Positions 49,155-62,775 of a DNA stretch of 64,000 nt are shown here, one piece after another; position 1 is the first letter of the stretch; every line of letters begins with the position of its first letter. Made by a program: the position numbers and the translations under genes. The stretch spans positions 1,167,501 to 1,231,500 of the forward strand of contig NZ_OX241534.1 of the NCBI RefSeq assembly GCF_945836005.1, written 5' to 3'. The notes under the pieces were generated by a model. The model was not told the DNA's origin and did no database searches. It saw nothing but the letters and a program-made list of their open reading frames with translations. This DNA comes from Candidatus Nitrosacidococcus sp. I8 (GTDB taxonomy: Bacteria; Pseudomonadota; Gammaproteobacteria; Nitrosococcales; Nitrosococcaceae).

Positions 49155-50636
49155 ATGTTATCGAGAATAGTTAAATTAGCTTGCTACTTATCACCACAAA
49201 CTAGTTTGATTCCAGCTAGATTAGATCGATTACCTTGGGCGAGATTTCATTGGATTGTGGTTATTGGTCTAGGTGTTGCGTGGGTTTTAGATGGTTTAGG
49301 AGCACAAGTGGTTGCTTCTGCTGGATTTCAGCAATCTTTGCATATGTCTCCTAAAGAAGTAGGACTATCAGCAAGTATTTATCTTGCTGGACAAGTTATC
49401 GGTGCCTTATTTTTTGGTAGGCTATCGGATAAGCTCGGTCGAAGAAAACTCTTTATTATTACCTTAGGAATCTACTTAGCAGGCAGTACTTTAGCGGGGT
49501 TTTCTTTTTTCTTATGGCAATTATTTGTTGCACAGTTTATTTCTGGTTTAGGGATAGGCGGAGAGCATACTGCGATTAATTCTGCGATTGATGAGCTTAT
49601 ACCTTCTAAATACCGAGGGCGTGCCAGTATTGCGATTAATGGTACCTATTGGGGTGGAGCAGCACTAGGGGCTAGTACAAATTTATTTTTACTAAATCCT
49701 AATATTTTTTCAGAGAATATAGGTTGGCGAATCAGCTTTCTTTTAGGGCCTATTTTAGGGTTAATAATCGTTTATTTACGCCGCCATATTCCAGAAAGCC
49801 CACGATGGATGGTAGGTCATGGATATAAGGATGAGGCGGAAAAAATTGTTAATAAGATTGAATCTGAAATTCAATCTCAGGGATATACGCTTAGTAAAGT
49901 GCCTAAAAATAAAGCATTAAAAATTTTTAACCAGAAAGATATCTCAGTAATTGAGTTAATTAAATTACTTTTTAAGCGATATCCTAGACAAACTTTTGTT
50001 AGCTTTTCTATGATGGTTACCCAATCTATACTATATAATTCTATTTTCTTTTCTTATGCTTTAGTTCTGCAGAATTTTTACCACACAAATCCTAGCTCAA
50101 CTCAATATTACTTCTTTCCATTTGCTATAGGGAATTTAGTTGGTCCTCTTATTTTAGGGAAGTATTTTGATACCGTAGGTAGGCGAAAAATGATCTTTAT
50201 TACCTATAGTATTTCTGGGATTATTCTAATAATTTCTGCAATTCTTTTTTATAAGAGTATACTATCAGCAACGATGCAAGCAACTCTTTGGAGTGCTTCA
50301 TTCTTTTTTGCCTCCGCTGCAGCCTCTTCTGCTTATCTTACGGTAAGTGAAATTTTTCCTTTGAATATACGAAGTCAAGCAATTTCCTATTTCTTCTCTA
50401 TCGCTCAGCTGACTGGTGCTATTGCCCCATCTATTTTTGGCTTACTTATTAATAATGGGATTGAAAATTTGAAGGGTGGTCATATAGCAGTAGTACTACT
50501 TGCAAGTGGTGAAATTGATAGAGGCCCGCTAGTTATAGGATATCTTTTTGCAGCAGGTATTATGATTCTTGGCGGATTAATCGCATTTGCTTTTGGCTAT
50601 GATGCAGAGCAAAAATCCCTAGAAGAGATTACTTAG
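49155..50636 (+). CDS. MFS transporter, tandem copy 1
   Basis: 493 residues, 12 predicted helices. FFGRLSDKLGRRKLF is the MFS loop 2-3 motif, HIPESPRWMVGHG the sugar-porter-type PESPR motif after helix 6, and FDTVGRRKMIF the second-half equivalent. It resembles aromatic/sugar acid or niacin-type MHS-like porters; the substrate is unknown. The next gene is a close paralogue in the same orientation, 39 bases on, so this is a tandem duplication. Confidence 0.88.
   Translation: MLSRIVKLACYLSPQTSLIPARLDRLPWARFHWIVVIGLGVAWVLDGLGAQVVASAGFQQSLHMSPKEVGLSASIYLAGQVIGALFFGRLSDKLGRRKLFIITLGIYLAGSTLAGFSFFLWQLFVAQFISGLGIGGEHTAINSAIDELIPSKYRGRASIAINGTYWGGAALGASTNLFLLNPNIFSENIGWRISFLLGPILGLIIVYLRRHIPESPRWMVGHGYKDEAEKIVNKIESEIQSQGYTLSKVPKNKALKIFNQKDISVIELIKLLFKRYPRQTFVSFSMMVTQSILYNSIFFSYALVLQNFYHTNPSSTQYYFFPFAIGNLVGPLILGKYFDTVGRRKMIFITYSISGIILIISAILFYKSILSATMQATLWSASFFFASAAASSAYLTVSEIFPLNIRSQAISYFFSIAQLTGAIAPSIFGLLINNGIENLKGGHIAVVLLASGEIDRGPLVIGYLFAAGIMILGGLIAFAFGYDAEQKSLEEIT
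49309..49351 (+). repeat. 43-bp direct repeat, copy 1 (in MFS pair)
   Basis: This stretch is identical to 50836-50878 in the paralogue, at the same codon positions. The rest of the two genes differs at many third positions, so this block may reflect strong constraint or recent gene conversion. Confidence 0.85.
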
Positions 50637-50675
50637 ATTTAAATATACTACTTATCTATTTTTCTAGAACCATAT

Positions 50676-52163
50676 ATGGGTAAATTGACTTCTCATCTTA
50701 ATTATTATAAGAATTCTTCTCCTATCACTAGTTTAATTCCAGCAAGAATGGATCGGCTACCTTGGGTACGATTTCATTGGATTGTTTTAATTGGACTAGG
50801 TGCTGCATGGGCCTTAGACGGGTTAGGTGCGCAAATGGTTGCTTCTGCTGGATTTCAGCAATCTTTGCATATGTCTCCCAAAGAAGTGGGCTTATCAGCA
50901 AGTATTTTTCTCTTTGGTCAAGTAATGGGTGCCCTATTTTTTGGGAGATTAGCAGATAGGTTAGGGCGAAAAAAAATCTTCATAGTTACTTTGGGAATTT
51001 GTATTTTTGGTAGTATTCTAGCTAGCCTGTCTTTTTCTATTTGGATATTTTTAATTGCCCAATTTATTACTAGTTTTGGATTTGGCGGAGAACATGCTGC
51101 CATTAATTCTGCTATTGATGAAATTATCCCCTCCAAATATCGGGGGCGTGCTAGCCTCGCTATTAATGGGACTCATTGGGGTGGTGCCGTGTTGGGTGCA
51201 AGTGCTAATTTTTTTTTACTTAATTCGGATATATTTCCAGAGGGTATTGGTTGGAGAATTGGGTTTCTTATAGGACCAACCCTAGGATTAATTATTATTT
51301 ATCTACGATACTACATTCCAGAAAGCCCACGATGGATGCTCAGCCGTGGTTATGAAAAGGAAGCAGAACAAATTGTAAGCAGCATTGAAACTCAAATCCA
51401 ATCTCAGGGGTATGTACTTAATAGAGTGCCTAAACATAAAGCATTACCGGTATATAGGAAAAAAAATATTCCAAGCACTGTATTATTTAAACTATTTTTT
51501 TACCAATACCCTCGGCAAACCTTTGTAAGCTTTTCCTTAATGGTAGCCCAATCTATTTTATACAATGCTCTTTTTTTCTCTTATGCACTTGTTTTAAAAC
51601 ACTACTATGGTTTAGATTCCAACTCAATTCAATACTATTTTTTCCCTTTTGCAGTTGCTAATTTGATGGGCCCTCTTATTCTAGGAAAATATTTTGACAC
51701 GATAGGTAGGCGGAAAATGATTTTTACTACTTATAGTATTTCTGGATTAATCCTAGCAATTTCTGCAATCCTTTTTTACAAAAATATGCTTTCTGCAGTA
51801 GCACAAACGGCTTTATGGGGTTCTTTATTCTTTTTTGCCTCTGCTGCTGCTGCATCAGCTTATCTTACTGTAAGCGAAGTTTTCCCTTTAAATATTCGAG
51901 GCCAAGCAATTTCCTACTTCTTTTCTATCTCTCAATTAACAGGTGCTATTGCTCCTTTTATGTTTGGCGTGCTTATTAACGGTGGAATTGAAGAGTTAAA
52001 AGAAGGGCATATAGCATATGTATTACTCGCAGGAGGGAAAATCAATAGAATACCACTAGTGATTGGATATCTTTTCTCTGCAGGTATTATGATTCTTGGT
52101 GGGATTATTGCCTTGTTTTTTGGTTATGATGCTGAAGGAAAACCCTTAGAAGAAATCAGTTAG
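50676..52163 (+). CDS. MFS transporter, tandem copy 2
   Basis: 495 residues and colinear with the preceding gene: the same LIPARxDRLPWxRFHWIV opening, FFGRLADRLGRKKIF, YIPESPRWMLSRG and FDTIGRRKMIF, and the same C-terminal LEEIS/LEEIT end. Differences are concentrated in the cytosolic loop (about residues 225-270) and some helices, so the two may differ in substrate. A 43-bp stretch near codon 55 is identical in both genes. Confidence 0.88.
   Translation: MGKLTSHLNYYKNSSPITSLIPARMDRLPWVRFHWIVLIGLGAAWALDGLGAQMVASAGFQQSLHMSPKEVGLSASIFLFGQVMGALFFGRLADRLGRKKIFIVTLGICIFGSILASLSFSIWIFLIAQFITSFGFGGEHAAINSAIDEIIPSKYRGRASLAINGTHWGGAVLGASANFFLLNSDIFPEGIGWRIGFLIGPTLGLIIIYLRYYIPESPRWMLSRGYEKEAEQIVSSIETQIQSQGYVLNRVPKHKALPVYRKKNIPSTVLFKLFFYQYPRQTFVSFSLMVAQSILYNALFFSYALVLKHYYGLDSNSIQYYFFPFAVANLMGPLILGKYFDTIGRRKMIFTTYSISGLILAISAILFYKNMLSAVAQTALWGSLFFFASAAAASAYLTVSEVFPLNIRGQAISYFFSISQLTGAIAPFMFGVLINGGIEELKEGHIAYVLLAGGKINRIPLVIGYLFSAGIMILGGIIALFFGYDAEGKPLEEIS
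50836..50878 (+). repeat. 43-bp direct repeat, copy 2 (in MFS pair)
   Basis: Identical to 49309-49351. It codes for VASAGFQQSLHMSP, a periplasmic-side segment after helix 1. Confidence 0.85.
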
Positions 52164-52180
52164 CTTTGACTAAGGGTATC

Positions 52181-52708
52181 TTATTTAATATATTTATTAC
52201 CTGTTAACTCATCTTCAAATCCAAAATGGGTAAGATCTTCCATTCGTTGGGGATATAAAATCCCATCTAAATGATCGCATTCATGTTGTACAACCCGAGC
52301 ATGAAATCCTGCTGCTTCTCGAGTGATTTTATTTCCTTTTTGATCATAGCCATGATAACGAATATTAAGGTAGCGTGGTACTAGCCCACGTAGTCCTGGT
52401 ACACTTAAACAACCTTCCCAGCTATCTTCCATATTTTTTCCTAAATACTCAATAACAGGATTGATAAGCACCGTTCTAGTAATAAGATCTGCTTCTGGGT
52501 AGCGAGAACTCACTTCTCCTCCAAAGATAACAACCCGTAGACTAATACCAATTTGAGGAGCGGCAAGCCCAGCTCCATTATATGCGGTCATCGTCTCAAA
52601 CATATCCTCGATGAGTAGATCGAGATCTTTATGATTAAGCTGGGTAATAGGTTGAGCAATTTCTTTTAAAATAGGATTTCCCATCTTTAAGATGGTATGT
52701 ACAGCCAT
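52181..52708 (-). CDS. def: Peptide deformylase
   Basis: Removes the formyl group from nascent N-terminal Met. All three motifs are present: [18 protein letters not shown] with the metal-binding Cys, and HECDHLDG with two metal-binding His. 175 residues. The C-terminal tail after HLDG is normal. It is not next to fmt, its usual partner, so it may be a second or relocated copy. Confidence 0.95.
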
Positions 52709-52859
52709 TTTATTTTCCCATTTACATGTAAGCCAAAATAGTTATTTATACTCACTATAGCTTTTTAAAAAATAAAATTAAGGATAATTTTTTATCTTAA
52801 TGTTTCCATTATAGAATGGTAATTATAGTAATTAAATAGTTTAATCCTAGAGAAAAAGA

Positions 52860-53768
52860 TTGAAAATTATGTATGCTTTCGCCCAGTTTATTATAAAAAA
52901 TAGAGCCTATGCTATAGGTATTGCTGCACTCTTAGGTAGATTCTCTATTATGATTCCCCCACTATCTTTATTTAGCGGAGCTACGGTAGGGTTAGTTACC
53001 TTACAACAGGGAATTAAAGAAGGGCTGATTATAATTTTTGGTGCTACCTTCTTTTTAGGGCTAGCTTCTTTAATCGTAATTAAAAAAATAGATTTGGCTT
53101 TTTTATTACTTATTGGATTATGGTTACCTAGTTTATTAGGTTGTTGGATCTTGCGAGTCAGTCGCTCTCAAACATTTACCCTACTTGCTATTGGTGGGAT
53201 TTCCAGCTTATTTGCTATGGGAATGCACCTTGCCGTAGGAGATGTTGTCACTTGGTGGCAACAAATTATTGAACAAATTATCCAGCAGTCAAATATAAAA
53301 GGAGCAGCTGCAGAACAGTTCACTCAAAGAAAATCGCTCATACTTATGAACGGTTTAGTCGCTATGTTTTTTGGTCTGAATTTAATGATGACTGTTTTAT
53401 TAGCACGGTGGTGGCAGGGATTACTCTATAACCCAACTGGGTTTGTAAGGGAATTTCATGGATTACGCTTACCCTATCAGTTGAGTTGGGCAGCAATACT
53501 GTTAACTATTGTTGTATTAATGAGCGATCATAGTGTAGAAGCTCATATCACCACCGATTTATTGATAATAACAATTATGATGTACCTGTTTCAGGGGCTT
53601 TCAGCTATTCATGGATTAATTGCTACTCGAAATTTACCTCGACTATGGCTATTTCCCGTATATCTAGGGATTTTTTTCCTATCTCCTTATTTTGTAATAG
53701 GGATAGCTATTATAGGGATAGTTGATACGTTAGTTAACTTTCGCCGTCCTAATTTATCTAAAAATTAG
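52860..53768 (+). CDS. DUF2232-type membrane protein (YybS-like)
   Basis: 302 residues with eight or so predicted helices and a C-terminal SAIHGLIATRN, typical of DUF2232 membrane proteins. Function unknown; homologues often lie near ribosomal or cell-envelope genes. The frame opens at a TTG (52860), with an ATG three codons later (52869) that is equally plausible. The 3' end overlaps nagZ by 4 bases. Confidence 0.7.
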   Translation: MKIMYAFAQFIIKNRAYAIGIAALLGRFSIMIPPLSLFSGATVGLVTLQQGIKEGLIIIFGATFFLGLASLIVIKKIDLAFLLLIGLWLPSLLGCWILRVSRSQTFTLLAIGGISSLFAMGMHLAVGDVVTWWQQIIEQIIQQSNIKGAAAEQFTQRKSLILMNGLVAMFFGLNLMMTVLLARWWQGLLYNPTGFVREFHGLRLPYQLSWAAILLTIVVLMSDHSVEAHITTDLLIITIMMYLFQGLSAIHGLIATRNLPRLWLFPVYLGIFFLSPYFVIGIAIIGIVDTLVNFRRPNLSKN

Positions 53769-54784
53769 TGCAAATTAGTGATTATCTCTACTGCTTTATG
53801 CCAAGCGGGGCTCTGCTGTAATTGAGTACGATTCATAAATTCTTGAGAGTAAAAGTTAGCTAACCGATTTGATGATTCTAAATTAGGAGTAATTTTATCT
53901 AATTCTTTAAGCAGAGCATTATAATCTCTATCATAGTTACATATCAGTGCCATATCACACCCAGCAGCTAATGTCTTATAAACACGATTAGCTATACTAC
54001 CTACACTAGAAGCCCCTACCATAGTTAAATCATCGCTGATACTTGCTCCTTTAAATTCTAATTCATTTCGTAGGATACTTTTTAACCATACTTCTGAGAA
54101 ACCTACAGGTTGTGAATCTATAGATGGGTAAAGTACATGGGCGGGCATAATTCCATCTAATTTGGGCATTATCCTTTGGAATGGAATCATATCGCTGGCT
54201 CTAATTATATTTAAAGTACGAGTGTCGATTGGGCATTCAATATGAGAATCAGCAGCTACAGAGCCATGGCCTGGAAAATGCTTACCTACGCTGGCCATTC
54301 CTGCTTTTTTCATTCCTTGAATATAGGCATTTGCTAAAGTAGTTACGATATTAGGATTCTGATGAAATGCCCTATCTCCTATTACCGAGCTTATTCCTAG
54401 ATCTATATCTAAAATAGGGGCAAAGCTAAAATCTACCCCTACCGATTGTAGTTCAACAGCCATTAACCAGCCTGCTGTGATTGCTATCTTACAGGCATCT
54501 TTAGGATTACGATCGTAAATCTCACCAAATATTCTAGCTGGAGGTAGTAAGGTAAAATATTCTCTAAATCGTTGCACTCGCCCTCCTTCATGATCTACTG
54601 CAATTAAAAGTTTAGAATCTTTTTGAATACTATGAATATCTGAGGTAAGGTGCTCTAGTTGTGTTATAGATTCATAATTTCTGGTAAAAAGAATCACGCC
54701 ACCTACTAAGGGATGAGCAAGAATGATTCGCTCTTTTGAGGTAATAACTTTTCCCTTTAAATCAATCATCAATGGACCAATCAT
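53765..54784 (-). CDS. nagZ: Beta-N-acetylglucosaminidase (peptidoglycan recycling)
   Basis: GH3 enzyme that removes GlcNAc from 1,6-anhydro-muropeptides in the cytosol. 339 residues. DHEGGRVQRF, the acid/base loop KHFPGHGSVAADSH and the nucleophile region SDDLTM are intact. No signal peptide. Its product is the substrate for amidase and AnmK (anmK at 1073). The YkuD gene 9 bases upstream is likely co-transcribed. Confidence 0.95.
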   Translation of the reverse strand: MIGPLMIDLKGKVITSKERIILAHPLVGGVILFTRNYESITQLEHLTSDIHSIQKDSKLLIAVDHEGGRVQRFREYFTLLPPARIFGEIYDRNPKDACKIAITAGWLMAVELQSVGVDFSFAPILDIDLGISSVIGDRAFHQNPNIVTTLANAYIQGMKKAGMASVGKHFPGHGSVAADSHIECPIDTRTLNIIRASDMIPFQRIMPKLDGIMPAHVLYPSIDSQPVGFSEVWLKSILRNELEFKGASISDDLTMVGASSVGSIANRVYKTLAAGCDMALICNYDRDYNALLKELDKITPNLESSNRLANFYSQEFMNRTQLQQSPAWHKAVEIITNLH

Positions 54785-54793
54785 AGTAATTAT

Positions 54794-55288
54794 TTAATCC
54801 TTTTCTGCAATAAATATAGGGGTACCTACCCGAATATAATCGAATAGTTTAAGTAGCGGTTCATTATATATACGAATACAGCCATGGGAGTTTGGAATTC
54901 CTATAGGAATTTCTTCAGGAGTACCATGAATATAAATATAACGCTTCATTGTATCTACAGAACCAAAGCGATTTTTGCTTGGCTCTAATCCGCTGAGCCA
55001 TAAAATACGGGTAAGGATCCAGTCTCGATCTGGATTTGCTCGTCCTAATTCTGGTGTATAAATCTCGCCAGTAGGTCGTCTTCCTGTAAATACGGTATTT
55101 ATAGGGTATTTTTCTCCAATTTTAGCCCGTATCTGATGCCATCCTCTTGGGGTACATCCACTATTTATTTGTTCACCTACGCCATTTTTAGCTGTAGAAA
55201 TAGATGTTTCAAAAATAATATTTTTATTCTCTATTAATTTAAGCTTCTGTTTTTCAACAGATATATAAATACAAAGAGAGTGAATCAT
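54794..55288 (-). CDS. YkuD-family L,D-transpeptidase or L,D-carboxypeptidase, no signal peptide
   Basis: 164 residues covering one YkuD domain with the catalytic motif HGTPEEIPIGIPNSHGCIRI (His ... Ser-His-Gly-Cys-Ile-Arg). Periplasmic L,D-transpeptidases have a signal peptide or anchor; none is seen here: the chain starts MIHSLCIYISVEKQK. Its gene precedes nagZ directly. A cytosolic YkuD enzyme could be an L,D-carboxypeptidase trimming recycled tetrapeptides, as known for LdcV-like proteins. That role is inferred. Confidence 0.85.
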   Translation of the reverse strand: MIHSLCIYISVEKQKLKLIENKNIIFETSISTAKNGVGEQINSGCTPRGWHQIRAKIGEKYPINTVFTGRRPTGEIYTPELGRANPDRDWILTRILWLSGLEPSKNRFGSVDTMKRYIYIHGTPEEIPIGIPNSHGCIRIYNEPLLKLFDYIRVGTPIFIAEKD

Positions 55289-55609
55289 AGAAAAAAAATA
55301 AATAGATACTACACTTATTAATTCAGGATTTATTAAGAGAGTTATGAATTAAAATTCTCTAGCTTAATCACCACAGATTAACAAAATTTTAATGTTTAGC
55401 TCTACTCTATGAGTAGAGCTAATCTTACTAGAAGGGTTATCTATTTTTAAAAATTTTTAAATGATAAAATGGTTATTTTTTTCTAATTTTATATCTACCT
55501 ACTATAGAAATCGCACCAACACTATTTATTAAAAAACAGAAATCTCCAGTTTGGAGCACAAACTCATTGAGTTAAGAGTACTAAGTATACTTTTAACAAC
55601 ACATTGAAA
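55289..55609. other. AT-rich region between the YkuD gene and the efflux leader
   Basis: About 320 bases without a credible gene, with long A/T runs. It presumably holds the promoters for both the minus-strand ldt-nagZ pair and the plus-strand leader; TATACT (55585-55590) is a possible -10 for the latter. No strong repeat was seen here. Confidence 0.45.
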
Positions 55610-55789
55610 TACCGTGAGGAGCACGGTAGTTAGGATTTGTGGACTAGCATACACACCTGAATTTTACCTAACATAGGTAGGGCTTAGGGCTGGGTTGAAG
55701 CAAGAAATACGCAGCGAGCAGATGTGCATGGATGCTTGCAGTTATTGTGAAGCGTAAGTCGTCAACTCTGATTTATACAGAAGGGAAGT
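55610..55789 (+). ncRNA. Structured leader RNA candidate before the efflux island
   Basis: Within 180 bases the plus strand can form: TACCGTG-AGGAG-CACGGTA (55610-55628, perfect); GTTAGG (55629-55634) with CCTAAC (55667-55672); TACCT-AACAT-AGGTA (55665-55679), which competes for the same CCT; GCAAG (55700-55704) with CTTGC (55735-55739); and AGTT with AACT (55740-55767). G+C is clearly higher than in flanking DNA. The mutually exclusive helices suggest a switch; the overall look also recalls HEARO/omega-type or group II intron RNAs. I cannot assign a family. The AGAAGGGAAGT ribosome site follows at once. Confidence 0.5.
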
Positions 55790-57415
55790 ATGGCTAAGTC
55801 AAAAATAGTCTTCTCTAAGCACCTTCGTGGCTGGCGTTTTGTACTTTTTAATTTTGCTCTAAGCCTTGGAAATATATCTGTGGCTTTTATGGGACCAAGC
55901 TATCTTGCCATCGAGCCTCATGCTGCTGGTGATTTAGAAGGAACCTTTGTAAGTTTTATGGCTTGGTCTCAGACAAACTTTATGCTTGCAATGTCTCTTG
56001 GATTTCCAATTGGTCGTACCCTTGCTGAGCGCTATGGAGCCTACCGGGTTTATATCGTTTCTTTTTTAGTATTTGCAGTTGCCTCTTACTTCTGTGCAAT
56101 TAGCCCCGGATATCTAGAATTTTTATATAGTCGGATTTTACTTGGCTTTTCTGGTGGGATTACTTTCCTGATAGGCCAAGAGCTTATCTTAAATGAATGC
56201 TCTCCTAAAACAAAGATTTTAGGGGTCATTGGTTGGGGTATTTTAGGTCTTATCCCCTTTGGGATTGCCCCACCTGTAGGCGGCTGGCTTGCTGATGAGG
56301 TCAATTGGCGCTATATATTTTATATTAATGGGTTTTTAGCTCTTATTCCTGCAGGGCTTGTTGGTGCTTTATTATACGATCGTGGATTTCACCGCATTTA
56401 TCATCGATTCGATTTTGTAGGCTTTCTTCTATATGCAGCCGTAATGTATGGGGTCCAAAATATTTTAAACTTAGGTAATGATTTTGATTGGTTTGAATCT
56501 CCATTTGTCCGCCGCATACTCATTCTTACCCTAATTGCCTTCCCTTTCCTTATTATTTGGATTAAGGATAGGCGCCATCCTATTATTGATTTAAATTTAT
56601 TTAGATACCGATCTTTTACCATTGGAATGATCAGTATCCTATTAGGGTTTTTTACTGCTCAAGGATTAATTTCCTTAATGACAGTTCAGCTTCAGACCTT
56701 GATGGATTACTCATCTACCCTTGCTGGTCTTGAGTTTTTACCTATGGTGATTTTAGCCATCCCAACAGCTATTGGAATGGCACTATTTAGTAAATATGTA
56801 GATCCGAGATTACTTGCTTGTTTAAGCTTACTTGGTTTCTCTGCGGTATGTTATTGGATCGGTATGTACGATCGAGCAGATTGGTATGAGCAAATTTTTT
56901 GGCCCCTCTTTTTCATGGGGTTTTTCTTAGCTGCTCTTTTAGGACCGCTGACAGTCATTATTCTCCGAGGGCTTTCTAATTTAGAGCTATTAAGGGCTGC
57001 AGAAATGCTCAATATGTTTCGAATTGCACTCGGCGGGATGGGGATTACTTCCCAAGGTATTATTCTCTATCGCCGGGAATTTTATCATCAGCTCCATTTA
57101 GCTAATCACTTTGGAGGCAGACAATACGCCTCTTATGATGTACTTGAGCAGTTCTCCGATCAACTTGAAAAAATTGGAATGGCTCCAAGGGCAATCGCTG
57201 CAAGAGCAGGTAGGTTAATAGTGCAGGAAGCAAATATTTTAGCAATGGCAGATGCTTACTTAATTGGATCCTATGTGCTTATAGGGCTTGCTGCTTTTAT
57301 TTGGTTAGTACCTTCTAATAAACCATCTGTACCTCTAGTGAATCAAGAAGAGTTAGTAGAAGAAGAAATAGGAGTTGCCGATGAAGCAGAGGTTGTTAAT
57401 AAAATAACTAATTAA
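55790..57415 (+). CDS. EmrB/QacA-type MFS exporter, copy 1
   Basis: 541 residues, 14 predicted helices (DHA2 family). The loop 2-3 motif is GRTLAERYGAYRVY and GGWLADEVNWRYIFYINGFLA is the conserved segment near helix 6. DHA2 pumps of this size work with an EmrA-type adaptor and TolC-like channel; both are encoded downstream. The C-terminus is acidic (EELVEEEIGVADEAE). A paralogue follows after 234 bases. The gene begins right behind the structured leader. Confidence 0.88.
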   Translation: MAKSKIVFSKHLRGWRFVLFNFALSLGNISVAFMGPSYLAIEPHAAGDLEGTFVSFMAWSQTNFMLAMSLGFPIGRTLAERYGAYRVYIVSFLVFAVASYFCAISPGYLEFLYSRILLGFSGGITFLIGQELILNECSPKTKILGVIGWGILGLIPFGIAPPVGGWLADEVNWRYIFYINGFLALIPAGLVGALLYDRGFHRIYHRFDFVGFLLYAAVMYGVQNILNLGNDFDWFESPFVRRILILTLIAFPFLIIWIKDRRHPIIDLNLFRYRSFTIGMISILLGFFTAQGLISLMTVQLQTLMDYSSTLAGLEFLPMVILAIPTAIGMALFSKYVDPRLLACLSLLGFSAVCYWIGMYDRADWYEQIFWPLFFMGFFLAALLGPLTVIILRGLSNLELLRAAEMLNMFRIALGGMGITSQGIILYRREFYHQLHLANHFGGRQYASYDVLEQFSDQLEKIGMAPRAIAARAGRLIVQEANILAMADAYLIGSYVLIGLAAFIWLVPSNKPSVPLVNQEELVEEEIGVADEAEVVNKITN

Positions 57416-57449
57416 GATTTAACTTCTACTCCTTTCCTCTTAACATATA

Positions 57450-57505
57450 ATATAGGAGTGATATAGCCTGAATTGGCAATAGATACTCCTATATATTATT
57501 TTTTT
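57450..57505 (+). terminator. Possible terminator between the two MFS copies
   Basis: ATATAGGAGT (57450-57459) pairs perfectly with ACTCCTATAT (57485-57494) across 25 bases, followed within a few bases by a run of seven T. The long loop weakens the case, but it suggests that copy 2 has its own promoter in 57506-57649. Confidence 0.6.
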
Positions 57506-57649
57506 AATATAGCCCTATAAGATACTTGCTTTTATTCAAATGTTTAACTATATTCTTAAATTTTAAAAATATAGTAAATAGCAAATATAAAAAATAATGA
57601 GTAACTAATTGATTTAATTAGTTATCACTCTTACATAAAAATATAAAAT

Positions 57650-59260
57650 ATGGCTAAATTGACAGCAATTTTTTCTAGAAGACTCCGTGGTTGGCGCTTT
57701 GTTTTATTCAACTTTGCCCTCGGTGTTGGAAATATTTCAGCAGCTTTTATGGCACCTACCTATCTTGCAATTGAGCCTCATACTGCTGGAGATCTAGAAG
57801 GAACATTCGTTAGTTTTGTTATTTGGTCCCAAACTTATTTCTTCCTTGCGATGACACTTGGTTTTCCAGTGGGTCGTGTCTTAGCAGAGCGATATGGAAA
57901 TTATCGAGTCTATATCGTCTCTATGTTAATACTTGCGGTTACTTGTTATTTTTGTGCCATTAGCCCAGGCTATCTAGAGTTCATGTATAGCCGAATTTTA
58001 CTTGGACTTTGTGCAGGTATTAGTTTACTCTTAGGTCAAGAATTAATGCTCAATGAGTATCCTGCTCGATCCAAGATAACCGGTGTAATTATTTGGGGGA
58101 TACTTAGCGTTGTACTTTTTGGCATGGGTCCTCCTATAGGAGGTTGGCTAGCTGATGAAGTCAATTGGCGTTACTTATTTTATATCAATGGATTTATTGC
58201 TCTTATTCCTGCAGGAATAATAGGTGCTTTATTATATGATCGAGGATTTCATCGAGTTTACCGCCCATTTGATTTTGTAGGATTTCTACTCTTCGCCGCT
58301 TTAGCCTACGGAATTCAAGCATTAATCAATATGGGAAATGATTTTGACTGGTTTGAATCTCCATTTCTCCGCCGTGTTCTTATTTTAGTCTTAATTATAT
58401 TCCCTTATTTCATTATTTGGACTAGCGGCCAGCGCCACCCTATTATAGATTTAAGCTTGTTTAAGCGACGTACATTTGTTATAGGATTAATCGGTGTATC
58501 TATAGGTTTTTTTGCAGCCCAAGGATTATTTTCCTATCTTACCCTTCGGCTTCAAACGATCATGGGATATACATCTACCCTTGCAGGACAAGAGATTTTC
58601 CCCCTTTTACTCCTGACGGTACCAGCAGCAGTAGGCGTAGCATTGTTTAGTAAATATATAGATCCGCGGCTACTTGCATGTTTAAGTTTACTGGGGTTTG
58701 CAGCTACATGTTATTGGTTAGGTATGTATGACCAACCCGGGTGGTATGAGCAAACTTTTTGGCCTGTTTTCTTTATGGGAATTTTCTTTTTCTCCTATAT
58801 GGGTCCGCTAACAGCCATTGCACTTCGAGGATTATCCAATGTTCAACTGATACGAGCGGCAGAAACCATTAACATGTTTCGAATCGCCTTTGGAGGTTTA
58901 GGAATTGTTTCTGATGGGATTATAGAGTATCGTCGTACTCCTTATCATCAGCTCCATTTAGCAAATCATTTTGGGGGCAGACAATATGCTTCCTATGATG
59001 TATTAGAACAATTTTCTGAGAAACTTGAGAAATTAGGGCTAGATCAAGCATCGATTATTGCAAGAGCTGGCAGGTTAATCCATGAAGAGGCTGGAGTTTT
59101 AACGGTAGCAGATGCATTTTTACTTGGATCTTTTACTTTAATCGGATTAGCCACTTTAGTTTGGTTTGTTCCTGCTAATAAACCTCCTGTAATCCCACCC
59201 ACTCCTATTCAAGAAGAGTTGCTTGAGGAAAAAATAGAAACTGCAGAAGTCACTGATTAA
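57650..59260 (+). CDS. EmrB/QacA-type MFS exporter, copy 2
   Basis: 536 residues and colinear with copy 1: LRGWRFVLFNFAL, GRVLAERYGNYRVY, GGWLADEVNWRYLFYINGFIA, and an almost identical HQLHLANHFGGRQYASYDVLEQFS segment near residues 434-457. Helices 10-12 differ most, which hints at different substrates. The acidic tail QEELLEEKIETAEV is kept. Its stop is 3 bases before the next start, so it is coupled to the outer-membrane gene. Confidence 0.88.
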   Translation: MAKLTAIFSRRLRGWRFVLFNFALGVGNISAAFMAPTYLAIEPHTAGDLEGTFVSFVIWSQTYFFLAMTLGFPVGRVLAERYGNYRVYIVSMLILAVTCYFCAISPGYLEFMYSRILLGLCAGISLLLGQELMLNEYPARSKITGVIIWGILSVVLFGMGPPIGGWLADEVNWRYLFYINGFIALIPAGIIGALLYDRGFHRVYRPFDFVGFLLFAALAYGIQALINMGNDFDWFESPFLRRVLILVLIIFPYFIIWTSGQRHPIIDLSLFKRRTFVIGLIGVSIGFFAAQGLFSYLTLRLQTIMGYTSTLAGQEIFPLLLLTVPAAVGVALFSKYIDPRLLACLSLLGFAATCYWLGMYDQPGWYEQTFWPVFFMGIFFFSYMGPLTAIALRGLSNVQLIRAAETINMFRIAFGGLGIVSDGIIEYRRTPYHQLHLANHFGGRQYASYDVLEQFSEKLEKLGLDQASIIARAGRLIHEEAGVLTVADAFLLGSFTLIGLATLVWFVPANKPPVIPPTPIQEELLEEKIETAEVTD

Positions 59261-59263
59261 TTG

Positions 59264-60916
59264 ATGTTTACTCAAGCCACATTAGAAAATGTACGAAATT
59301 ATTTCTGCCTGATTATGGGTTGCATATTACTGACTGATGGATGCGGTTGGATTCCAGCAAAAAAATATCAAGTTCAATATATGGAACCATCTGAAATAAG
59401 AAATACGATTGCCCGAAATCACCGTAGAGAAGAAGTTTTTCCAAACTGGCCACGGGATCATTGGTGGGAAGAATTTAAAAACTCAGAATTAAATGATCTT
59501 ATTGATATTGCACTAGCAGATAATCCAGGACTTAGAGCAGTCGCTGAACGATTACAGGTGGCTAATGCGATAGTACGGGTTGAAAGTGCGAGACTACTTC
59601 CCTTCTTAGAGGCAGAGGCAGAATTCAAATCAGAACGCCTAGTTGAGGCTACTTCTGCAGTTGGAGTAAACCCCTTGCCGGGGGGAGACATTGAATTTGA
59701 TCCAGGTATAGGGGGAGATTTTGGATCTGATTTAGGCGGTGGGTTCGACACTGAATTTAATCCACCCGATGGTGAACGAGAAACAATTACTTTAGGTGAA
59801 ATAAATCCTATAGGATTGCGCTATCAACTAGATTTTTGGGGAGAAAATCGTGCCCGGGTAGAAGAAGCATTAGGCCAAACAATGGCTATGGAAGCAGAAC
59901 TTGCCCATATGCGATTAACCCTAACAACAGCCATTGCCCGTGCTTATTTTCGGGGGTTAGCTACTTATCGGCAGTTAAATTTGCTCTATGAGATGATAAA
60001 CCTTCGTCAAAACCTCTTAGATCTGGCTAAAATTAGAGTACAACTAGGAATTGATGATTTTAGATCGGTAGTAGAGGCAGCGGTTAATCTTGAAGAAATT
60101 AATAAACGAGAAGCTGAAATTAAAGATTTACTTCAATTTTATCAATATATAATCGCTAAATTAATCGGTCATGGTCCGGATGCAGGAGAGAATCTTTTTA
60201 TCGATTCAACAGTTACTACTCCTCAAGGTATCTCTGTACCTAATACTATACCTAGTAGTCTTTTAGCCCATCGTCCTGATTTAGCAGCGGCTATGTTCCG
60301 TGCTCAAGTAGCAGCAAAAACAGTTCAAATAGCTAAGATACAGTTTTTACCTACCATTGATTTACGTAGTTTCACTGGCATTAATGCAACAACACTTGTT
60401 GAAGATACAGGAGCATTGCCACGCACTTTATTTTCAAAACCTAGTTTATCCTACGGAGGGGGTATTGAGCTCAGATTACCTTGGTTTCAAGGAGGTCGAC
60501 TTCGAGCGGTACTAGAAACGCAGCGTGCTGAATATAACAGTGCAGTAGAAACTTATAATGATACATTGCTTAACGCATTAAAAGAAATTGCAACAAGTTT
60601 AAATACTTGGCATCAAACCCGGAAAGCTTTGGAATCTCAGCACCGTCTTCTCGTTTCAGTAAAAGGAGGATGGTATTTAAGTCAAGTTAATCTGCAAACA
60701 GGGTTAGATGATCGTCGAGATTCCTTAGAGCACCAATATAATGTATTAGATCAGAAGTTTAATTTAAGGGTTATTGAATCTGATGAACTTACTGCTATGG
60801 TTAGCCTCATTGAAGCATTAGGAGGAGGTTATCCCTATTATATTGATACTCAAGGAACCAGTACTGAAATAAAGCAAAAAAATAACATGCAAAGATCAGC
60901 ACAACTTATCAATTAA
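59264..60916 (+). CDS. Outer-membrane efflux lipoprotein (NodT/TolC family), copy 1
   Basis: 550 residues from the ATG at 59264. Signal peptide with lipobox-like LTDGC (Cys about 27), then two OEP repeats with long coiled coils, typical of NodT-type outer-membrane channels. Odd: an insert at about residues 132-168 rich in Gly and Asp (GGDIEFDPGIGGDF, LGGGFDTEF), absent from copy 2, in the first beta-strand region. It has no clear ribosome site and likely depends on translation of the MFS gene. Confidence 0.88.
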   Translation: MFTQATLENVRNYFCLIMGCILLTDGCGWIPAKKYQVQYMEPSEIRNTIARNHRREEVFPNWPRDHWWEEFKNSELNDLIDIALADNPGLRAVAERLQVANAIVRVESARLLPFLEAEAEFKSERLVEATSAVGVNPLPGGDIEFDPGIGGDFGSDLGGGFDTEFNPPDGERETITLGEINPIGLRYQLDFWGENRARVEEALGQTMAMEAELAHMRLTLTTAIARAYFRGLATYRQLNLLYEMINLRQNLLDLAKIRVQLGIDDFRSVVEAAVNLEEINKREAEIKDLLQFYQYIIAKLIGHGPDAGENLFIDSTVTTPQGISVPNTIPSSLLAHRPDLAAAMFRAQVAAKTVQIAKIQFLPTIDLRSFTGINATTLVEDTGALPRTLFSKPSLSYGGGIELRLPWFQGGRLRAVLETQRAEYNSAVETYNDTLLNALKEIATSLNTWHQTRKALESQHRLLVSVKGGWYLSQVNLQTGLDDRRDSLEHQYNVLDQKFNLRVIESDELTAMVSLIEALGGGYPYYIDTQGTSTEIKQKNNMQRSAQLIN

Positions 60917-60921
60917 AAGCT

Positions 60922-62775
60922 ATGTATACACGCCTTAACGTTAACGTTTACTTTCAATTTCAACAACGATTGAAGTTATCTGCTATTTTAATTATGGTGT
61001 GTATCGCTTTAATAAGCGGATGTGCTTGGTTACCTAAAGGTAACCCGCATACTAAATTCTTAGTACCCTCAGAGATAAAAGAAACTATTCTCCATGAGCG
61101 TCATGTGGATAAAACCTTTCCTGATTGGCCAAAAGATCATTGGTGGGAAGAATTTAAAAGTCAAGAGCTCAATGAGCTGATTGCAAAAGCACTTGCAGAT
61201 AACCCAGGACTTAAAGCAGCACACGAACGGCTTCAAGCAGCAGATTCTATCGTCAAAGTCCAAGGAGCGGCACTGTTACCATTTTTAGAAGCAGAAGCAG
61301 GATATACAGCAGAGCGACTTTCAGAGCATGGTGTTTTTGCTGCGTTAAATCCAGGCGTTGCGGGAATCACTTTTGATTTAGGTGTGATTAATCCTATTGG
61401 GTTTCGTTATGAATTGGATTTTTGGGGCAAAAATCGCTCCTTAATGGAATCGGCACTGGGTCGTTCTCTAGCTGAAATGGCAGAAAAAGCCCAAGTACGT
61501 TTGGAATTAACTACCGGTATTGCCCGATCTTGGTTCCATGGACTGGCTACCTATCAGCAGCTCCAACTGGTTTATAAAATGATAGGAATTAGAAAGGAGC
61601 TTTTACAGCTTGCTAAAATTAGAGTGCAGTTAGGGGTTGATGATTTTAGATCAGTGATGGAGGCAGCTACTGAGCTAGAAAATGAAAACAAGCGAGAAGC
61701 TGGAACCAAAGATTTACTAGAATTCTACCAGTACATGATTGCTAAATTGATAGGAAGTGGCCCTGATGCAGGGGAAAAACTATTTATTAATTCAACAGCT
61801 ACCATTCCACAAGGTATCCCCTTACCTGATACTATACCCAGTGGGCTTTTAACTCATCGCCCAGATCTATCAGCAGCTATGTTTCGTGCTCAAGCTGCCG
61901 CGAAGATGATAGAAGTGGCTAAAACTAGGTTCTTACCTACCATTGAATTACAAAGCTTTGCTGGGATTAATGCCTTGACTGTAATAAGTGCTGCAGGGGG
62001 GGCTGGTGCTTTTCCTGGTGCACTTTTTAATAAAGGCTCATTGGCTTATGGTGGTGGTCCTACCTTTAGTATCCCTTGGTTTGAAGGAGGTCGTCTCCGA
62101 GCAGAATTAGGTGCACAACGCTCAGAGTATGATAATGCGGTAGAAACCTATAATGACACTTTGCTTGAGGCACTAAGGCAAATTGCAGAAAGTTTAAGTG
62201 CATGGCATCAAACCCGGAAAATTCTTGAAGCTCACCATAGATTATTAGTTTCTGTCCGTGGGGATTGGCATTTAAGCCAAGTACGACTACAAACTGGGTT
62301 AAATGATAGACGGGACGCCTTAAGACAACAGTATGCAGTACTCAATCAACAATATGAGCTACGGGGTATTGAGTCTGATGAACTCTCTGCTATGGTAGAA
62401 GTAATTGAATCACTAGGTGGGGGTTATCCTTACTATATTGATGAAAAGACTAAAGATCTTGCCTACGGACATCCTGGAGGTAAAGATACGAGAGATAATT
62501 CCTCTAAAGAAGAGCCTGAGGAAATTAAGGCTGCTCAACATAAAATAAAAAACCCTGAGAAAACTAGCAATAAAGGGAAGAACGATTTACAGCAAGCACA
62601 AAATAATAAAAAATCGGCTAAACAAAAAAATAATAAGCGACAGACACAAAACGTTAAAGAAACAACTAAGCCAAAGCGTCGTATAAGAATGAAAGCGAAA
62701 AAAAGAAGAGAGGAAATGGCAGGGAATAATGCTAATGAGCATAGTAATCATATAGAAGTAACTGCAGAAAATTAG
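60922..62775 (+). CDS. Outer-membrane efflux lipoprotein, copy 2, with basic tail
   Basis: 617 residues. Signal peptide and lipobox LISGC (Cys about 34), then the same two-repeat OEP channel as copy 1, up to ESLGGGYPYYIDE near residue 510. Beyond that is a tail of about 105 residues made largely of Lys, Asn, Gln, Glu and Arg (e.g. KKSAKQKNNKRQTQNVKETT), low in complexity and not part of the family. It may be periplasmic and bind murein or polyanions; this is inference. It starts 5 bases after copy 1 ends. Confidence 0.87.
   Translation: MYTRLNVNVYFQFQQRLKLSAILIMVCIALISGCAWLPKGNPHTKFLVPSEIKETILHERHVDKTFPDWPKDHWWEEFKSQELNELIAKALADNPGLKAAHERLQAADSIVKVQGAALLPFLEAEAGYTAERLSEHGVFAALNPGVAGITFDLGVINPIGFRYELDFWGKNRSLMESALGRSLAEMAEKAQVRLELTTGIARSWFHGLATYQQLQLVYKMIGIRKELLQLAKIRVQLGVDDFRSVMEAATELENENKREAGTKDLLEFYQYMIAKLIGSGPDAGEKLFINSTATIPQGIPLPDTIPSGLLTHRPDLSAAMFRAQAAAKMIEVAKTRFLPTIELQSFAGINALTVISAAGGAGAFPGALFNKGSLAYGGGPTFSIPWFEGGRLRAELGAQRSEYDNAVETYNDTLLEALRQIAESLSAWHQTRKILEAHHRLLVSVRGDWHLSQVRLQTGLNDRRDALRQQYAVLNQQYELRGIESDELSAMVEVIESLGGGYPYYIDEKTKDLAYGHPGGKDTRDNSSKEEPEEIKAAQHKIKNPEKTSNKGKNDLQQAQNNKKSAKQKNNKRQTQNVKETTKPKRRIRMKAKKRREEMAGNNANEHSNHIEVTAEN

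Follow-up and report, generated by a model that had tools for sequence, protein, structure and literature searches.

The window analysed here is a stretch of 64,000 nucleotides from the genome of Candidatus Nitrosacidococcus sp. I8. An efflux-type island at positions 49155-62775 contains MFS genes in two pairs (49155-50636 with 50676-52163, and 55790-57415 with 57650-59260). Two tandem ORFs of the same island (59261-60916 and 60922-62775) look, as judged by eye only, like outer-membrane efflux proteins. In each pair the members resemble each other, which suggests local duplications. The MFS exporter gene starting at 55790 is divergent from an L,D-transpeptidase-like gene, and the intergenic DNA between the two includes a perfect hairpin, GCTCTACTC-TAT-GAGTAGAGC, at 55400-55425. 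A simple scan of 55289-55850 for a sigma-70-like promoter found none.

The first-pass annotation had described positions 55610-55789 as a G+C-rich leader with perfect helices, two of them mutually exclusive, which ends at the exporter and might be a ligand- or drug-sensing riboswitch, a stand-alone HEARO/omega-type RNA or an intron remnant. The composition of the segment is as described: its G+C content is 45.6%, compared with 37.4% in the window as a whole and 25.1% in the intergenic DNA upstream, and it ranks in the top 3.5% of 180-nt windows. Perfect helices, among them ACCGTG/CACGGT and TACCT/AGGTA, can be read directly from the sequence, and it was also correctly noted that no such leader precedes the second MFS gene (57650). 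The exclusive helices exist as well, formed by 55667-55671 with 55630-55634 or by 55665-55669 with 55675-55679, but both fall in a variable arm outside the conserved fold. Similarly, a structured segment does precede the exporter, but the conserved unit is 55608-55771 and thus stops 18 nt before the MFS start codon. Single-sequence folding is only mildly unusual against shuffled sequences, with a z of -2.38 over 201 nt and of -1.13 over the exact unit, and is therefore insufficient for a claim by itself; it is homology and covariation that raise the fold of 55608-55771 above chance. The features of the locus are listed below, where R1 and R2 are covariance models of the segment and its relatives.

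55608-55771, + strand: probable omega RNA (reRNA) scaffold with the right end (RE) of a TnpB transposon; found by R2, R1 and blastn
55611-55676, + strand: residual C-terminal tail of tnpB, 21 codons (TVRSTVVRICGLAYTPEFYLT, then stop), in frame with the TnpB tail TVRRTGIKACGLADKPEACLV (then stop) of a sister-genus genome (compared to the L023 TnpB ORF)
55612-55626, + strand: helix 1 (55612-55616 with 55622-55626), loop AGGAG; all 5 pairs intact in the window copy and all covarying among the relatives
55618-55769, + strand: pseudoknot of GGAG (55618-55621) with CUCU (55766-55769), with one G-U in the window; pairing seen in relatives
55636-55704, + strand: RAGATH-18-like core of helix 2 (55636-55640 with 55700-55704) and helix 3 (55644-55648 with 55689-55693), the variable arm lying between its halves; 10 of 10 pairs kept, with covariation
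55710-55739, + strand: helices 4 and 5, the 3' hairpins, with partial decay in the window copy; 6 of 9 pairs remain
55752-55762, + strand: helix 6, ahead of the conserved 3' end CGTCAACTCTGA; all 3 pairs intact
55772-55791, + strand: predicted guide position TTTATACAGAAGGGAAGTAT, 20 nt past the RE and uncertain by about 1 nt, which covers the MFS gene's ribosome site and start codon; flanks diverge after AACTCYRA
55790-57415, + strand: MFS exporter gene, 541 aa (PF07690, E 2.1e-22)

Relatives of the segment and their transposon family

A blastn search with the segment covered 39 related genomes and found four relatives at unrelated places in a genome of the sister genus, with 71-73% identity and a best E of 2.9e-9. 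Of these, two mark the 3' end of TnpB ORFs that contain PF01385 and PF07282. A third belongs to an element with an internal deletion, the start of which retains coding sequence for the PF12323 helix-turn-helix, and the fourth is a solo end. TnpB genes of the same subfamily elsewhere in the family bear the same RE. The covariance model R1 was built from eight sequences, and because the window copy was among them, a second model, R2, was trained without it. R2 recovers the window copy at full length (1-186) with 110.2 bits and E 6.6e-28, and R1 scores it at 142.6 bits. Across six genomes of the family R1 locates 52 places, a single one of them in the genome studied here, where neither blastn nor R1 found a second copy. 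About 50 relatives sit in five genomes of the same family, and 16 of the 50 copies examined lie directly at a tnpB 3' end. Outside the family, R1 gives weak matches in just two of 229 genomes sampled from the class, and no match to the segment was found in the plasmids and phages searched. Across copies the similarity stops after the conserved scaffold end AACTCYRA, and the flanks beyond it are unrelated.

TnpB is an RNA-guided nuclease and an ancestor of Cas12. The ten full-length elements of this family are 1372-1453 nt long and carry tnpB only, with no tnpA. Their left edge is GAAGGA followed by a conserved left end, the sequence before it being unrelated, and by analogy GAAGGA is the probable TAM of the family. 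The RNA in these elements covers the last tnpB codons and about 110-120 nt beyond them. The partner TnpB scores 338 bits with the IS200 TnpB model and 146 bits with that of IS607, neither of which reaches its own curated cut-off, and ISDra2 (202 bits) is a closer match to it than ISFba1, 8IAZ (116 bits). By analogy with other TnpB systems (PMC11061315), the right flank outside the transposon would be the guide.

There are also mini-elements of about 315-395 nt without tnpB (L115, L116, L117, L119, L120, L111 and L097), in which a left end at or near GAAGGA is followed by a conserved spacer and the omega RNA; they look like MITEs carrying the guide RNA scaffold only.

Conserved fold and its covariation

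The relatives share six helices. Covariation was assessed on an alignment of all copies (49 distinct sequences), more than 40 rows of which were unused in deriving the structure; in this alignment, which was fitted to the model and so favours the structure, 88.7% of cells are paired, compared with 65.9% after shuffling and 32-43% when the pairing is slid. Double changes occur in 273 cells against 92, both sides change in 26 of the 27 consensus pairs, and the covariation score is 0.547 against 0.195. A pseudoknot between the loop GGAG and the 3' end CUCC is paired in 89% of cells (25-47% when slid) and shows a compensatory change in three cells; its support from shuffling is modest since these columns hardly vary.

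Of the 27 consensus pairs the window copy retains 24: helices 1-3 and 6 are complete, the 3' hairpins hold 6 of their 9 pairs, and the second 3' hairpin of its relatives is missing. The decay is thus incomplete, and current selection is possible. Of the features that characterise TnpB omega RNAs in general, three were found: homology to RNAs at tnpB 3' ends, along with the tnpB tail left in the window, a conserved scaffold end followed by a variable flank, and a conserved fold with a pseudoknot.

State and interpretation of the window copy

We consider 55608-55771 to be an orphan, partly decayed TnpB omega RNA at the stranded right end of a tnpB-only transposon, with a probability of about 0.9. 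In a full-length element, the bases just outside the transposon would act as the predicted guide and TnpB would cut a target 3' of the GAAGGA TAM, as other TnpB systems suggest. The window copy has lost its left end and nearly all of tnpB: no left end was found near it, and a search of the genome for the rest of the lost tnpB found nothing beyond the C-terminal tail. The genome holds one other TnpB, intact and 372 aa long, at G000:C1:1108555-1109394 (L034 1252-2370). This protein has 38% identity and is of IS200 type, but it belongs to another subfamily and has a different right end, ending GAGGATGTCAA, which R1 does not match; the cognate partner is therefore absent. The remnant now forms the 5' leader of the MFS exporter gene, its would-be guide lying over the ribosome site and start codon. 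It probably had a guide function formerly and is presumably passive at present, apart from an incidental effect that it may have on translation of the exporter.

The proposal of a riboswitch for the MFS exporter drew on a structured element at the ribosome site with two mutually exclusive helices, and we now regard it as highly improbable. The exclusive helices belong to the non-conserved arm, the relatives stand at unrelated sites and often at tnpB 3' ends, and Rfam gives no riboswitch match. The exporter homologues of the sister genus have neither such a leader nor an R1 match, so the conservation upstream of orthologous pathway genes that a riboswitch would show is missing; the homologues in GTDB contigs are distant (43-44%), and none were found in viral contigs. 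The first-pass annotation itself had named a mobile RNA with copies at unrelated sites as evidence against its riboswitch, and such copies are present. Its alternative of a stand-alone HEARO/omega-type RNA came closer, in that the RNA is of the omega class, but it belongs to TnpB and not to IscB/HEARO. That the segment is an IscB/HEARO RNA, or the remnant of a group I/II intron, is hardly credible even though it is a mobile structured RNA, since neither HEARO nor intron matches were found in Rfam and the linked genes encode TnpB and not IscB or a reverse transcriptase. A search of the window with Rfam at the gathering threshold reported one tRNA only, and a search of the segment at E up to 10 gave chance matches only.

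The orphan omega RNA might also have been exapted by the host to control the MFS gene, acting either in cis within the exporter mRNA or in trans as a guide for some TnpB. In the core helices none of the 15 pairs is broken, although sequence identity to relatives is about 70%; the element has the orientation of the exporter and ends 18 nt before its start codon, and an intact TnpB is at hand. Across the family, an ORF on the same strand starts no more than 40 nt from the right end of the omega RNA in 10 of 50 copies, compared with 6.5% of random positions; this proximity may reflect insertion preference or selection. Exaptation nevertheless seems unlikely to us, as the 3' hairpins are decayed, the available TnpB differs both in subfamily and in its right end, and the element is absent from the exporter homologues of the sister genus. 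A trans target is not apparent either: elsewhere in the genome the guide has a single near match (16 of 20 contiguous), which falls within a DsbA-like gene and has no GAAGGA motif. One match was also given by a reversed-pattern control, and we judged the match to be chance. If exaptation were true, it would represent host use of a stranded guide RNA, which is not described in the TnpB reRNA papers cited here.

Right ends just upstream of a same-strand start codon were seen at L022, L025, L060, L062, L096, L109, L078 and L111 and at the window copy, where the stretch concerned is 55771-55790. We also considered GAAGGA as a mimic of the Shine-Dalgarno sequence that steers insertions to start codons and rejected the idea, for its sites show no enrichment near ATG (2.9%, compared with 4.4% for control hexamers).

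With the stranded omega RNA as the preferred reading, the riboswitch hypothesis gives way to a firm identity for 55608-55771. The segment belongs to a family of TnpB omega RNAs that is reported by no Rfam model at threshold, and the approximately 50 copies of this family, many of them without tnpB, could help to find out whether stranded guide RNAs are put to use by their hosts.

Comparison with known guide RNAs

The RNA family resembles RAGATH-18 but stays below the threshold of RF03064. RAGATH-18 is the core of the IS607 TnpB guide RNA, or reRNA (PMC11061315), and seven relatives of the segment match its Rfam model along the full length (RF03064, model positions 1-71) with 28-35 bits, below the gathering cut-off of 44.9; the window copy was not reported by this model even at E up to 10. 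Like the RAGATH-18 reRNAs of IS607, the family has a core about 72 nt long that is bounded by CCUGUGGA...UGAAGCAGGAA, a hairpin flanking it on the 5' side, two further 3' hairpins, a pseudoknot from loop to 3' end and a variable 3' guide. The ISFba1 reRNA is likewise built from a 5' hairpin, 3' hairpins and a loop-to-3'-end pseudoknot, with a 20-nt guide and the TAM AGGAG (PMC11061315). The pseudoknot here has the same topology as PK2 of ISFba1 (PMC11061315), and a pseudoknot has been reported as required in the ISXfa1 reRNA (PMC10711439). The TAM of ISFba1 and the probable TAM of this family, GAAGGA, are both AG-rich.

In other respects the family departs from IS607. The IS607 reRNA has been called independent of coding sequence (PMC11061315), whereas the RNA described here overlaps the 3' codons of tnpB, and the IS607-type TnpB expected as partner of an IS607 reRNA is not what accompanies it. 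On the basis of the scores below the cut-off, the IS200/IS605-like TnpB and the overlap with the tnpB coding end, we describe the family as RAGATH-18-like and do not file it under RF03064. The genome group studied here is also not obviously among the phyla named for RAGATH-18 RNAs (PMC11061315). Among 16,029 RAGATH-18 RNAs, 64% adjoin an IS607 TnpB (PMC11061315); by our computation the remaining 36% do not, and orphans are thus ordinary. Unlike other orphans of this kind, the window copy stands in the leader of an exporter.

The family also shares features with IS200/IS605 elements of the ISDra2 type. For its TnpB, the IS200 TnpB model and ISDra2 structures are the best matches, and its RNA, like the ISDra2-type omega RNA, overlaps the tnpB 3' end and has its guide outside the right end. 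In contrast to that type, the TAM is AG-rich and not AT-rich, the scaffold ends in AACTCYRA and tnpA is lacking. The right end is also visibly different from that of the IS200-type TnpB in the genome studied here.
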